Assembly: GCF_010993745.1 (NCBI RefSeq)
Contig: NZ_WOTN01000003.1
Span: forward strand, 1,116,001-1,180,000
Direction of reading: 5' to 3'
DNA: 64,000 nucleotides
DNA from: Fodinicola acaciae
GTDB lineage: Bacteria; Actinomycetota; Actinomycetes; Mycobacteriales; HKI-0501
The notes under the pieces are model-generated. The model ran no database searches and was not told where the DNA came from. It saw only the letters and a list, made by a program, of their open reading frames with translations. Position 1 is the first letter of the stretch. The number at the start of each line of letters is the position of its first letter. Shown in pieces: positions 21,304 to 62,702 of this stretch. The position numbers were made by a program, and so were the translations under genes.

Positions 21304-21357
21304 GCACGCATGGGGGCCTTGCTTGCGCTGGACGCACGCAAGGGGGCCTTGCGTGCG
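21304..21357. repeat. Tandem direct repeat inside the B/C pair
   Basis: Two 24-base units with a 30-base period, both of form GCACGCAnGGGGGCCTTGCnTGCG, occupy the centre between inverted copies B and C. Base composition and the GCACGCA start relate them to the family-2 units at 48664, 60300 and 62654. Two units are too few for a CRISPR and there is no spacer-repeat periodicity beyond them. Confidence 0.6.
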
Positions 21358-46706: not shown

Positions 46707-46762
46707 CTGGTCAACTGGTGCGTACGCCTGCGCTGCGCCCGTCCAGATGCCATCCTCGGCAC

Positions 46763-47656
46763 GTGGACACGGAGACTGCACAGCTGCACGTCACGGTCGG
46801 CGACGGACGGCGACTGCGAGTGAGGATCAGCGGCGTACGCGGTGGTCCGTTGGTCATCGCGCACCACGGCACTCCTGGTTCGGGCCTGCCGCTGCCGGCC
46901 GCGATCGAGGACGTGGCGGCCAAGGGCCTGCTGTTGGCGACCGTCGACCGGGCCGGCTTCGGTGAGTCGGACCGGCTGCCGGGCCGGCAGGTCGCGCATG
47001 TCGCCGCCGACACCGCCGCGGTCGCCGACGCGCTCGGGGTGGAACGGTTTCGGGTCTGGGGTTGGTCCGGCGGCGGTCCGCACGCGCTCGCCTGCGCGGC
47101 TCTGCTGCCCGACCGGGTCGAGGCGGTCGCCACGCTCGGCGGCGTGGCGCCCTACGACGGCGAGGGCCTGGACTGGATGGGTGGCATGGGTGAGGCCAAC
47201 CTCGCCGAGTTCGGCGCGGCGGTGGCCAGCGCCGACAAGCTGGAGGAGTTTCTCGCCGAGGAGCGCCGCGAGGTGCTGGCGAGCCGGCCGGAGCAGCTGG
47301 TCGAGCTGCTCGCGAGCCTGCTGTCGCAGCCGGACCGGGACGCGATGGACGAGACCACGTCGGCCTATTTCTACGCGTCTTTCGCGGACGGCCTGTCCGG
47401 CAGCCATCACGGCTGGCTGGACGACGACCTGGCGTTTGTACGCGGGTGGGGCTTCGACCCGGCGACGATCACCGCGCCGACGCTGATCGTGCACGGCCAG
47501 CACGACCTGATGGTGCCGATCAGCCACGCGCGGTGGATGGCGCGGCGGATCCCGCACGCGGTGGTGTGGATCTCCCCGGACGACGGCCACATCAGCCCGC
47601 TGCCGAAAATCAGTCGCGTCCACGAGTGGTTGCTGGGGCAGGATCGGCAGACGTGA
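46763..47656 (+). CDS. Alpha/beta hydrolase
   Basis: 297 residues from GTG 46763; the frame extends upstream to 46718 without coding character. Alpha/beta-hydrolase fold: oxyanion IAHHGTPGSGLPLP, nucleophile elbow GWSGGGPHAL, acid in VHGQHDLMVPI, catalytic His in DDGHISPL. No signal peptide. Substrate unknown. The stop overlaps the GTG of the next gene (GTGA), so the two are translationally coupled. Confidence 0.85.
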   Translation: MDTETAQLHVTVGDGRRLRVRISGVRGGPLVIAHHGTPGSGLPLPAAIEDVAAKGLLLATVDRAGFGESDRLPGRQVAHVAADTAAVADALGVERFRVWGWSGGGPHALACAALLPDRVEAVATLGGVAPYDGEGLDWMGGMGEANLAEFGAAVASADKLEEFLAEERREVLASRPEQLVELLASLLSQPDRDAMDETTSAYFYASFADGLSGSHHGWLDDDLAFVRGWGFDPATITAPTLIVHGQHDLMVPISHARWMARRIPHAVVWISPDDGHISPLPKISRVHEWLLGQDRQT

Positions 47657-48654
47657 CCCTCATCCGTTCGCCGTACCACCTCGAAGACCCGATCCCCGCG
47701 CTCGCCGACGGCGACGTTCACGCGCTGCCCCTCGCCTCGATCCTGGAAGACGTGGCCGCGCGCGTCGCGGTCGCGCGTACGCCCGTGGTGCTGTCCGGCG
47801 ACTGCACCACCGCTCTGGGCACGGCCGCCGGCCTGCACCGGGCCGGCGTGGAGCCGACGCTGTTGTGGCTGGACGCGCACGGCGACTTCAACACGCCGCG
47901 GACGAGTCCGTCCGGCTATCTCGGCGGCATGGTGGTGACGATGCTGACCGGCCGCACCGATCCGCGTGAGCTGGTGCGCGGCCTCGGCCTGCGGCCGCTG
48001 GCCGACGAGCGGACAGTACTCGTCGACGCGCGCGACCTCGATCCCGGTGAGCGCGATGCGTTGGCCGCGGTTGCCGTGCGGCGGTGTGCGCTGGAGGAGC
48101 TGCCGGTGCCGGCCGGGCCGGTGCATCTGCATCTCGACCTGGACATCGCCGGTGACCTGCCGGCGTTTCGCTACAAGGCGCCGGGTGGTCCCGGTTTCGA
48201 TGCGGTGGTCGCCGCGGTCGATCGTGTTTTCGCTGGTGGTGAGGTGTGTGCCTTCGATGTCGCGGTGACGGTGGATCCGTCCGCCGACGGCTGTCTGGAG
48301 GCGATCGAAGCCGTCCGGCGTACCGGTTGGATCGATGACGAGCCGTTGCTCGTACGCCCGGCTCGGTTGTCCGATGTCGACGCGCTCGTGGGGCTGTGGA
48401 CGGCCGCGGGGCTGCGGTTTGACGCGGCCGCCGTGGAGGAGGAGCTGTCGGCGTGCCTGCCCGATGGGCTGGCGTTCGTGATCGCGTCGGAGAAGCGGGT
48501 GGTGGCGTCGGTGTGGGGGACGTACGACCGGCGGCGCGGCTGGATCCAGCGGCTGGCGACCGCGCCGGACTGCCGCGGCCGTGGGTTTGCGCGGCGGTTG
48601 GTCGCGGTGGTGGAGGCTCGGCTGGCCGGGCTCGGTTGTCGGCACCTGGGCTGA
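47653..48654 (+). CDS. Arginase-family domain fused to a truncated GNAT acetyltransferase
   Basis: 333 residues from GTG 47653. Residues 1-225 are an arginase/agmatinase/formimidoylglutamase-type domain: VVLSGDCTTALGTAAGL (first metal region, where family members usually have GGDH), WLDAHGDFNTPRTS (DAHxD) and LHLDLDIAGD (DxDxxD-like). Residues about 235-333 are a GNAT domain: VRPARLSDVDALVGLWTAAG ... RLATAPDCRGRGFARRLVAV, with acetyl-CoA loop CRGRGF. It ends at GCRHLG, before the last strands a GNAT normally has, and a family-2 palindromic repeat begins 9 bp after the stop. Metal-site changes (GDC for GDH, no final DP) leave ureohydrolase activity doubtful. Confidence 0.72.
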   Translation: MTLIRSPYHLEDPIPALADGDVHALPLASILEDVAARVAVARTPVVLSGDCTTALGTAAGLHRAGVEPTLLWLDAHGDFNTPRTSPSGYLGGMVVTMLTGRTDPRELVRGLGLRPLADERTVLVDARDLDPGERDALAAVAVRRCALEELPVPAGPVHLHLDLDIAGDLPAFRYKAPGGPGFDAVVAAVDRVFAGGEVCAFDVAVTVDPSADGCLEAIEAVRRTGWIDDEPLLVRPARLSDVDALVGLWTAAGLRFDAAAVEEELSACLPDGLAFVIASEKRVVASVWGTYDRRRGWIQRLATAPDCRGRGFARRLVAVVEARLAGLGCRHLG

Positions 48655-48663
48655 CCGGATGTC

Positions 48664-48713
48664 CGCATGGCCACCATGCGTGCGCTGATCGCAAGCATGG
48701 CCACCATGCGTGC
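48664..48713. repeat. Palindromic element family 2, direct-repeat form
   Basis: Two copies of GCATGGCCACCATGCGTGC in direct orientation (48665-48683 and 48695-48713), each internally palindromic (GCATGG/CCATGC), follow the stop of the arginase-GNAT gene. The same unit occurs as inverted pairs at 60300-60348 and 62654-62702. Here it sits between two co-oriented genes, the next starting at 48788. Confidence 0.8.
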
Positions 48714-48787
48714 ATGCGGAGCGGCGGCCGGTGGCCGGTCGCGGAAGTGTGGCGCGGTGGATGCGGGGACACGGCATAGTGGCGAGG

Positions 48788-50371
48788 GTGACTGCAGCGA
48801 CAGACGAACAGCTGGACGCGCCGATCGTCGCCGTGACCGTCTATCCCGGTCAGGCCCGCGTCACGCGCCGCGCGCGCGTCGAGTTGGTGCCGGGCGAGCG
48901 GCAGGTACGGCTCGGCGGCCTGCCGGTCAACCTGCATCCCGACTCGGTACGGGTCGCCGGCCGCGGCTCGGCGTCGGTGCTCGGGGTGGACGTACGGATG
49001 GCCCGGCTGGCGCGTACGCCGGACGCGGCGATCACCGCGCTCACCGACCAGAAACGCGGCCTCCAGGCCCGGCTCGACGAGCTGGCCGACGCGGACCGGG
49101 TCGAGGAGGACCGGATCGACTACCTGCGTACGCTGTCGCGGCGCGGCGGCCGCGAGTACGCCGGCACGCTGGCCACCGGCACGGCGCAGGCGCAGCAGGC
49201 GATCGCGCTCGGCCAGACGATCGCCGACGAGCTCGCCACCGCGCTGGCTCGCCGGCGCGACCTCGCCGAGCAGCGACGGCTGGCGCAGGAGGACCACGAC
49301 CGCGTCGAGCGTGAGCTGTCGGCGCGCCGCTCGCCGCGGGCGCCGGACCGCCGCGAGGTGGTGGTCGACCTTGACGTGACCGGCTCGCCGGTCGAGCTGG
49401 AGGTGTCGTATCTGGTCGACGGTGCCCACTGGGACTCCACCTACGACCTGCGGCTGGCCGGCGACCGGCTGACGCTCGCCTGGTTTGGCCTGGTCAGCCA
49501 GAACACCGGCGAGGACTGGCCGGAGTGCGACCTGCGGCTGTCCACGGCGCGGCCGGCGGTCGCCGTGGAGGTGCCGGAGCTGGAGCCGTGGTTCCTGTCC
49601 AAGTACGAGCCGCCGCGGCCGATGCCGCGCGCGCCGATGATGCAGGCGGCCGGCTACGGAGCGGCGCCGGCGGCACCGGGTGGCGCGTACGACGCCGTGG
49701 CCGACATGGACGTGCCCGATGTGCGCACCGAGGTGGCCGCCGTCGAACACGGCGCGACGGCGACGACGTACAAGCCGAGCCGGCCGATCGCGGTGGCGGC
49801 CGATGGCACCGCGCATCGCGCCGCGGTCGCCACCTTCGAACTGCCGGTGCGGCTCGACTACGTCACCGTGCCGCTGCGCGGTGTCGAGGCGTATCTGCGC
49901 GCCACCGCCACCAACAGCTCCGAGCACGCGATCCTGCCCGGTCACGCGGCGCTGTTCCACGAGGCCGAGTACGTCGGCAGCACCGACCTGCCACCGTGGG
50001 CTCCCGGCGAGGAGGTGGAGCTGGCGCTCGGCGTGGACGACCGCGTACGCGTCGAACGCGAGCTGGTCCGCCGGTCGGCGAGCAAGGCGGCGCTCGGCGG
50101 CACCGAGCGGCGCGAGCTCGCATACAAGATCACCATCGGCAACTACAGCCCCGGCGCTGCGCGGATCACCGTGCAGGATCAGGGTCCGGTGTCGCGCGAT
50201 CCGGCGATCACGGTACGCGACGTGACCTGCCAGCCGCGCGAGTCCGAGCGCACCGAGCTCGGCGTCCTGACCTGGCGGTTGGAGGTGCCGGCCGGCGGCA
50301 AGACCGAGATCACCATCGGCTTCCGGGTCGATGTGGCCAAAGGCGTACGGATGGTCGGCTGGCGCGAGTAG
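48788..50371 (+). CDS. DUF4139/DUF4140 (mucoidy-inhibitor MuiA-like) protein
   Basis: 527 residues from GTG 48788. The DUF4140 N-terminal beta domain is at about 10-75 (VAVTVYPGQARVTRRARVEL). A long Arg/Glu/Ala coiled coil occupies about 75-185. The DUF4139 beta domain follows (ELEVSYLVDGAHWDSTYDLR, LTLAWFGLVSQNTGEDWPEC). A flexible Pro/Ala/Met-rich insertion near 265-310 precedes the final beta part (FELPVRLDYVTVPLRGVEAY, GKTEITIGFRVDVAKGVRMV). No signal peptide is visible. Family function is unknown apart from an overexpression link to mucoidy in other bacteria. Confidence 0.85.
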   Translation: MTAATDEQLDAPIVAVTVYPGQARVTRRARVELVPGERQVRLGGLPVNLHPDSVRVAGRGSASVLGVDVRMARLARTPDAAITALTDQKRGLQARLDELADADRVEEDRIDYLRTLSRRGGREYAGTLATGTAQAQQAIALGQTIADELATALARRRDLAEQRRLAQEDHDRVERELSARRSPRAPDRREVVVDLDVTGSPVELEVSYLVDGAHWDSTYDLRLAGDRLTLAWFGLVSQNTGEDWPECDLRLSTARPAVAVEVPELEPWFLSKYEPPRPMPRAPMMQAAGYGAAPAAPGGAYDAVADMDVPDVRTEVAAVEHGATATTYKPSRPIAVAADGTAHRAAVATFELPVRLDYVTVPLRGVEAYLRATATNSSEHAILPGHAALFHEAEYVGSTDLPPWAPGEEVELALGVDDRVRVERELVRRSASKAALGGTERRELAYKITIGNYSPGAARITVQDQGPVSRDPAITVRDVTCQPRESERTELGVLTWRLEVPAGGKTEITIGFRVDVAKGVRMVGWRE

Positions 50372-60299: not shown

Positions 60300-60348
60300 C
60301 CGCATGGCCACCATGCGTGCACCCAACGCACGCATGGTGGCCATGCGG
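60300..60348. terminator. Family 2 palindrome as bidirectional terminator
   Basis: A perfect inverted repeat with 21-base arms beginning ccgcatggccaccatgcg and a 7-base loop acccaac. It fills the interval between two convergent genes exactly: the left stop ends at 60296 and the right stop begins at 60349. Each arm is itself palindromic. It must terminate both transcripts. Confidence 0.88.
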
Positions 60349-62653: not shown

Positions 62654-62702
62654 CCGCATGGCCGCCATGCTTGCGTTGGATGCAAGCATGGTGGCCATGC
62701 GG
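62654..62702. terminator. Family 2 palindrome as bidirectional terminator
   Basis: Arms ccgcatggccgccatgcttgc and its complement (one mismatch) around gttggat, four bases after the stop of the sigma-partner gene and 14 bases before the MetB stop on the other strand. Same unit as 60300-60348 and 48664-48713, with compensating changes (cttgc/gcaag) that preserve pairing. Confidence 0.88.

Follow-up and report, generated by a model that had tools for sequence, protein, structure and literature searches.

DcsB is an N(omega)-hydroxy-L-arginine amidinohydrolase with a part in D-cycloserine synthesis. REPINs, in turn, are repeats of bacterial genomes that are built as paired palindromes and that, in the available part of one account, carry a GTAG or CGTC tag at one end (PMC3733652). 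Here we describe a locus in Fodinicola acaciae where a protein related to DcsB is fused to a GNAT domain and ends a few nucleotides ahead of a REPIN-like repeat. The window, i.e., the whole stretch of DNA that was analysed, comprises 64,000 nucleotides of contig NZ_WOTN01000003.1, and positions are given within it. Of the two species compared, the one that has lost the end of a domain carries a high-copy palindromic repeat at that place, with the same repeats lying beside intact genes elsewhere.

A rare fusion gene in Fodinicola

The fusion gene (47653-48654, plus strand) is open for 333 codons, from a GTG at 47653 to a TGA at 48652-48654. Its start overlaps the stop codon of an upstream alpha/beta hydrolase gene (46718-47656, plus strand, start uncertain; Pfam Abhydrolase_1), and it is followed by a DUF4140/DUF4139 ORF (48710-50371, plus strand), the true start of which is probably near 48788. 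Both neighbours have the same position in Fodinicola feengrottensis. In the 333 aa product, Pfam Arginase matches residues 27-212 (62.6 bits against a cut-off of 22) and Acetyltransf_1 matches residues 267-331 (36.1 bits against 20.7). A ureohydrolase domain of the arginase fold (residues 1-223; 47653-48321, plus strand), recognized from Pfam and from DcsB and arginase matches by sequence and by the fold of the model, runs without a linker into a truncated YpeA-like GNAT domain (residues 232-333; 48346-48651, plus strand), recognized from Pfam and NCBIfam matches and a GNAT alignment. Among NCBIfam models, arginase and PRK03624 (YpeA) come nearest, each with a score below cut-off. An earlier note, made from the letters of this DNA, had proposed an in-frame fusion of an arginase-type and a GNAT domain. 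The uninterrupted frame, the two Pfam matches above cut-off, and the presence of the fusion in F. feengrottensis bear this out.

The fusion, though real, is rare; the searches found it in two genomes only, F. acaciae and F. feengrottensis HKI 0501 (record NZ_WOTO01000015.1; loci L002 and L207, which are the same gene), with conserved gene order and the same neighbours. A scan of contigs returned 315 relatives, and among the best 80 of these, one (L002) matches the whole query; a further fusion could still lie among the 235 others. Across 113 loci, the window locus and both copies of that of F. feengrottensis are the only ones where the GNAT piece adjoins an arginase. The sole other match to the GNAT piece in this set, L096, has no arginase match, and outside Fodinicola no arginase of these loci is adjoined by a similar GNAT or by the upstream alpha/beta hydrolase. 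In a sample of 61 genomes that reaches from the genus to the order, 28 gave a match of some kind and, among the matches listed, both halves occur together only in the two Fodinicola. At the class level, where five candidates were scored per genome, 37 of 394 genomes have a match at 1e-15 and only F. acaciae spans both halves; F. feengrottensis is not among the genomes with a match and was probably not drawn into the sample. Sixty plasmid records match, none across more than 80% of the query. A limited search of the literature found no paper on arginase/GNAT or ureohydrolase/acetyltransferase-domain fusions, nor on DcsB with arginase.

The Cys-type ureohydrolase half

The first metal motif of the window protein is GDCT, with C51 (47803-47805, plus strand) replacing the first His of arginases. 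The remaining motifs, DAHGDF and HLDLDI, supply D74, H76, and D78 (47872-47886, plus strand) and the pair D162 and D164 (48136-48144, plus strand). C51, D74, D78, D162, and D164 are invariant in 95 aligned relatives, and H76 is found in 89 of the 95. These relatives are the 101 loci with an arginase match minus six: the window, both copies of the frameshifted F. feengrottensis gene, L089, L098, and L100. The F. feengrottensis gene likewise reads DC at the ligand position. The closest solved sequence is DcsB (PDB 6lug; 1.4e-17), the alignment to which places C51 on Cys86; both the window protein and DcsB have Gly for the His of arginase HGM (GGM). In alignment to Thermus arginase, the domain departs from a canonical arginase by GDC and GGM, and it scores 71.8 against the NCBIfam arginase equivalog cut-off of 227.6. 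With a Cys at the first ligand position and the other ligands retained, it falls with DcsB.

Judged from the aligned relatives, GDC for GDH is the Cys-type ureohydrolase family's own motif, in which the other metal ligands are kept. The altered metal motifs that had been pointed out as a peculiarity of this protein are in this respect the family norm and known in DcsB. GDC as a sign of decay was considered and rejected, since the Cys is fixed throughout the aligned relatives. The family spans Chloroflexota, Pseudomonadota, Actinomycetota, and others, and its members mostly extend ~190-260 residues from the first matched residue, without a GNAT. GDC marks this broad group, which is not to be taken for broken arginases.

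The model of the ureohydrolase half is good, with ten-residue blocks at pLDDT 75-97 over residues 1-220 and one block at 64, and its best match by Foldseek is an arginase domain (4.0e-12, prob 1.00). In a quick tree of 92 rows, supported by SH-aLRT values with no bootstrap, both fused copies form a branch of their own (SH-aLRT 99), separate from the branch of actinobacterial stand-alone copies (SH-aLRT 100). An Eremiobacterota group neighbours the fused branch, a placement that is only weakly supported (82). The actinobacterial stand-alone branch includes one Cys-type ureohydrolase from each Fodinicola genome (L101 and L023), encoded in addition to the fused copy; that of F. acaciae is at 1501-2217 of L101, corresponding to C2:50264-50980.

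The missing GNAT end and the adjoining repeat

The GNAT half of the window protein ends at GCRHLG and everything beyond is absent. The Acetyltransf_1 profile is covered at positions 28-95 of 116 when the protein ends, in agreement with the stop described in the earlier note. After the common Gly-Cys, there are 46 residues to the stop in F. feengrottensis (P0002) versus 4 in the window, making the F. feengrottensis GNAT longer by 42 residues. P0002 matches YpeA over residues 15-145 of 158 (3.5e-17), i.e., it has a complete GNAT domain, which the window protein does not. When P0002 and the window piece were aligned with 11 further GNATs, the window piece alone ended at GCRHLG; the closest stand-alone GNAT detected, at 47% identity, continues for 43 residues past the Gly-Cys. 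An alignment mixing stand-alone GNATs with arginases misplaced the GNATs at the wrong end and was excluded. Neither the model of the complete GNAT, built from two sequences (mean pLDDT 47), nor the poor GNAT half of the fusion model was used as evidence. Since the longer F. feengrottensis copy has no repeat and all 11 other GNATs continue, the window GNAT is, by sequence comparison, truncated relative to its orthologue and to stand-alone GNATs. The truncation suspected in the earlier note is upheld in this way. The search for homologous fusions that it proposed gave one, in F. feengrottensis, and homologues of equal length without a repeat, which it took to speak against truncation, were not found: the single homologous fusion has a longer C-terminus and no repeat.

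The loss is also seen in the DNA. Between the shared Cys codon and the cggcatagtg that is conserved ahead of the next gene, the window has 132 nt and F. feengrottensis 192 nt. Although shorter, the window's stretch contains 59 bp of repeat, so at least ~119 bp of ancestral sequence are gone or replaced. No remnant of the GNAT tail was detected past the window stop in any of the three frames (score 19.0, equalled by 234 of 500 shuffles) and no second match to the complete GNAT anywhere in the F. acaciae genome at E 0.001. A GNAT remainder behind the repeat or elsewhere in the genome was rejected on the basis of this frame comparison and genome search. The F. feengrottensis gene region is without the repeat, its best match to the 18-mer having 5 mismatches. 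To the right of the repeat, homology between the species is not above chance outside the cggcatagtg stretch (207 of 1000 shuffles are as good), and no clear homology at the right edge of the repeat marks the breakpoint.

The repeat (48661-48719, plus strand) consists of two same-direction units 30 bp apart, with the core GCATGGCCACCATGCGTGC at 48665-48683 and 48695-48713. It does lie right after the stop codon as had been described, but the distance is not 9 bp; we measure 10 nt to the core, or 6 nt counting the frequent left flank gtccg. In the window there are 8 matches at ≤3 mismatches versus 0.23 expected, with other copies at 60303-60345 and 62657-62699. The pattern CATGGCCACCATGCGTGC occurs, at ≤2 mismatches, at 374 sites in the F. 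acaciae genome and its reversed form at none. F. feengrottensis has 6 sites against 2 for the reversed pattern; their core is changed, and two pairs among them share the 25-bp spacing. Another 59 genomes have 0-4 sites each, no more than for the reversed pattern. The 374-site repeat is thus built like a REPIN: its palindromic units are numerous, lie outside genes, and mostly form inverted pairs. No Y1 transposase was found, as PF01797 is without a match in the F. acaciae genome at E 0.01; 6 of 14 control genomes matched.

At ≤3 mismatches, 58 fetched stretches contain 68 repeat clusters, of which 38 are plain inverted pairs 25 bp apart, 14 are single units, and 5 contain same-direction units at a distance of 30 bp, as at the fusion gene. 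Hairpins are strong in three inverted pairs that were folded (z -7.8 to -8.2) and weak in the copy at the fusion gene (z -2.2). By a mechanical ORF call, 31 of the 51 clusters with neighbours on both sides sit between convergent genes and 2 between divergent genes. In the 58 stretches, 57 gene ends are ≤22 bp from a cluster, 34 of them ≤10 bp. Thirty of these 34 were scanned against Pfam (left out were L144 minus, L146 plus, L168 plus, and L195 minus). Among the 25 with a match, the last match reaches ≤15 positions from the end of the profile in 24; the single exception is BcrAD_BadFG in L173, at 231 of 271 and followed by 55 residues. Two transporters in this count were scored by Sugar_tr, with MFS_1 covering only half its profile there, and some domains end well before the end of the protein, so that the comparison shows only that no domain is cut. 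In the F. acaciae genome, a repeat 6-10 nt after a stop is ordinary; a domain cut at a repeat is exceptional, given that 24 of the 25 testable genes beside repeats are intact. Of the proposed truncation by repeat insertion, the truncation stands; insertion as its cause does not follow from the position of the repeat, as repeats usually adjoin intact gene ends.

Two further repeat structures were observed. At 21304-21351 of the window, there is a variant inverted or direct pair with the core AAGGCCCCC(A/T)TGCGTGC, which looks like another version of this repeat design. Moreover, related elements of ~430-630 bp were found in five loci (L145 611-1252, L146 615-1210, L168 617-1072, L186 620-1118, and L151 613-1261). 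They occur in either orientation, some have internal gaps, and their aligned pieces are ~79-94% identical. In 4 of the 5 loci they sit between two opposed repeat units, as if inserted into the spacer of the repeat or carried by it.

Origin of the truncation and comparison with known systems

The explanation that we favour, and consider probable, is that the window gene encodes a working Cys-type ureohydrolase with a dead GNAT stub, made by loss of the GNAT end at the repeat. The fusion would have arisen before the split of the two Fodinicola species. The last 42 residues of the GNAT and their DNA would then have been lost in the window's lineage where the REPIN-like repeat now sits, either because the repeat inserted and sequence was deleted or because recombination took place at its edge. 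Repeat insertion, or deletion at the edge of the repeat, is the likely cause of the truncation; the data from the two genomes would fit as well if the repeat had arrived after an earlier cut. The ureohydrolase half would still hydrolyse a guanidino substrate, perhaps a modified one, e.g. N-hydroxyarginine, at a metal pair held by C51, D74, H76, D78, D162, and D164. The GNAT half, without part of the acetyl-CoA cleft and the closing strands, would be a non-catalytic stub. Judged from the residues kept and lost, a working ureohydrolase half and a dead GNAT half are the most likely state of the protein. Against this explanation count the occurrence of the fusion in only two genomes, with the order of repeat and cut unfixed, the frameshifts of the F. 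feengrottensis copy in its assembly, and the lack of breakpoint homology at the right edge of the repeat. Nor is the retained GNAT less conserved than the arginase half, so the stub may yet have a function.

This conservation is the main argument for an unlikely alternative in which the short GNAT half has been kept as a functional module for ligand binding, oligomerisation, or minimal acetyltransferase activity, and the protein is bifunctional or regulated despite its shortening. Between the two Fodinicola, NG86 dN/dS is 0.17 in the retained GNAT (99 codons) and 0.20 in the arginase half (223 codons), values that are rough since dS is near saturation (1.7 and 1.3, respectively) and ~10 arginase codons near the first frameshift aligned out of frame, slightly raising dN of the arginase half. 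The retained GNAT codons have a third-position G+C of 0.90 and keep the RGRGFA acetyl-CoA motif. Changes are evenly divided between the window and F. feengrottensis, 9 versus 8 in the GNAT and 17 versus 17 in the arginase half (16 versus 18 with another outgroup). That the window's retained GNAT has not outpaced its counterpart speaks for a cut of recent date or for remaining use, and averages over the whole divergence cannot separate the two; the end missing here is present in all 11 other aligned GNATs and in the F. feengrottensis orthologue.

Decay of the entire gene in Fodinicola, truncated in one species and frameshifted in the other, is still less probable. The F. feengrottensis copy does have two frameshifts in the assembly, but the metal ligands are kept and both halves have a dN/dS well under 1. 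Frameshifts likewise split the symporter, hydrolase, and DUF4139 genes adjoining the F. feengrottensis fusion (L002, L207), which suggests a public assembly with many indel errors. The published assembly has 11,978 CDS in 8.71 Mb, compared with 8705 in 8.86 Mb in a sister strain (available part of PMC7232338). Because the neighbours are split too and the published CDS count is inflated, the frameshifts are likely an assembly error. Finally, a reading in which the fusion normally ends this early and the repeat is there by coincidence is scarcely credible and was rejected, for although repeats often lie a few bases past a stop, as at the 57 gene ends above, the profile is left at position 95 and the orthologue, the aligned GNATs, and the nearest stand-alone GNAT are all longer.

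The joining of guanidino and acetyl chemistry that the earlier note suggested may apply to the complete form in F. feengrottensis; the analysis gave no indication of the polyamine-type substrates named there. In a rather doubtful further reading, the complete form is bifunctional, its Cys-type ureohydrolase releasing an amine that the attached GNAT acetylates, and the repeat trimmed the F. acaciae form to a single activity. If so, the product of the complete form is perhaps an N-acetylated compound of specialised metabolism, and the locus would be a rare case of a REPIN-like repeat remodelling the end of a protein.

Compared with known systems, the ureohydrolase half resembles DcsB (6lug) in having a Cys, Cys86 in DcsB, for the first His ligand and GGM for the arginase HGM. 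However, DcsB is a single-domain chain of 281 aa, whereas the window ureohydrolase is fused to a GNAT and its predicted substrate is a guanidino compound. With the arginase of Thermus thermophilus (2ef4), it has in common the arginase fold and the DAHGDF and DxD metal motifs; the first His ligand and the His of HGM in that enzyme are Cys and Gly, respectively, in the window half. The best match of the GNAT half is YpeA/PRK03624 (PDB 2pdo), from which the window copy differs in being fused, in being without 42 C-terminal residues, and in scoring 55.7 against an equivalog cut-off of 124. The F. acaciae repeat differs from REPINs, as far as the available part of PMC3116915 describes them, in having no detected Y1 transposase and in the direct-pair arrangement of the copy at the fusion gene. 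Like the paired palindromes described there, it is made of palindromic units of ~20 bp, present in high copy and mostly at gene ends.
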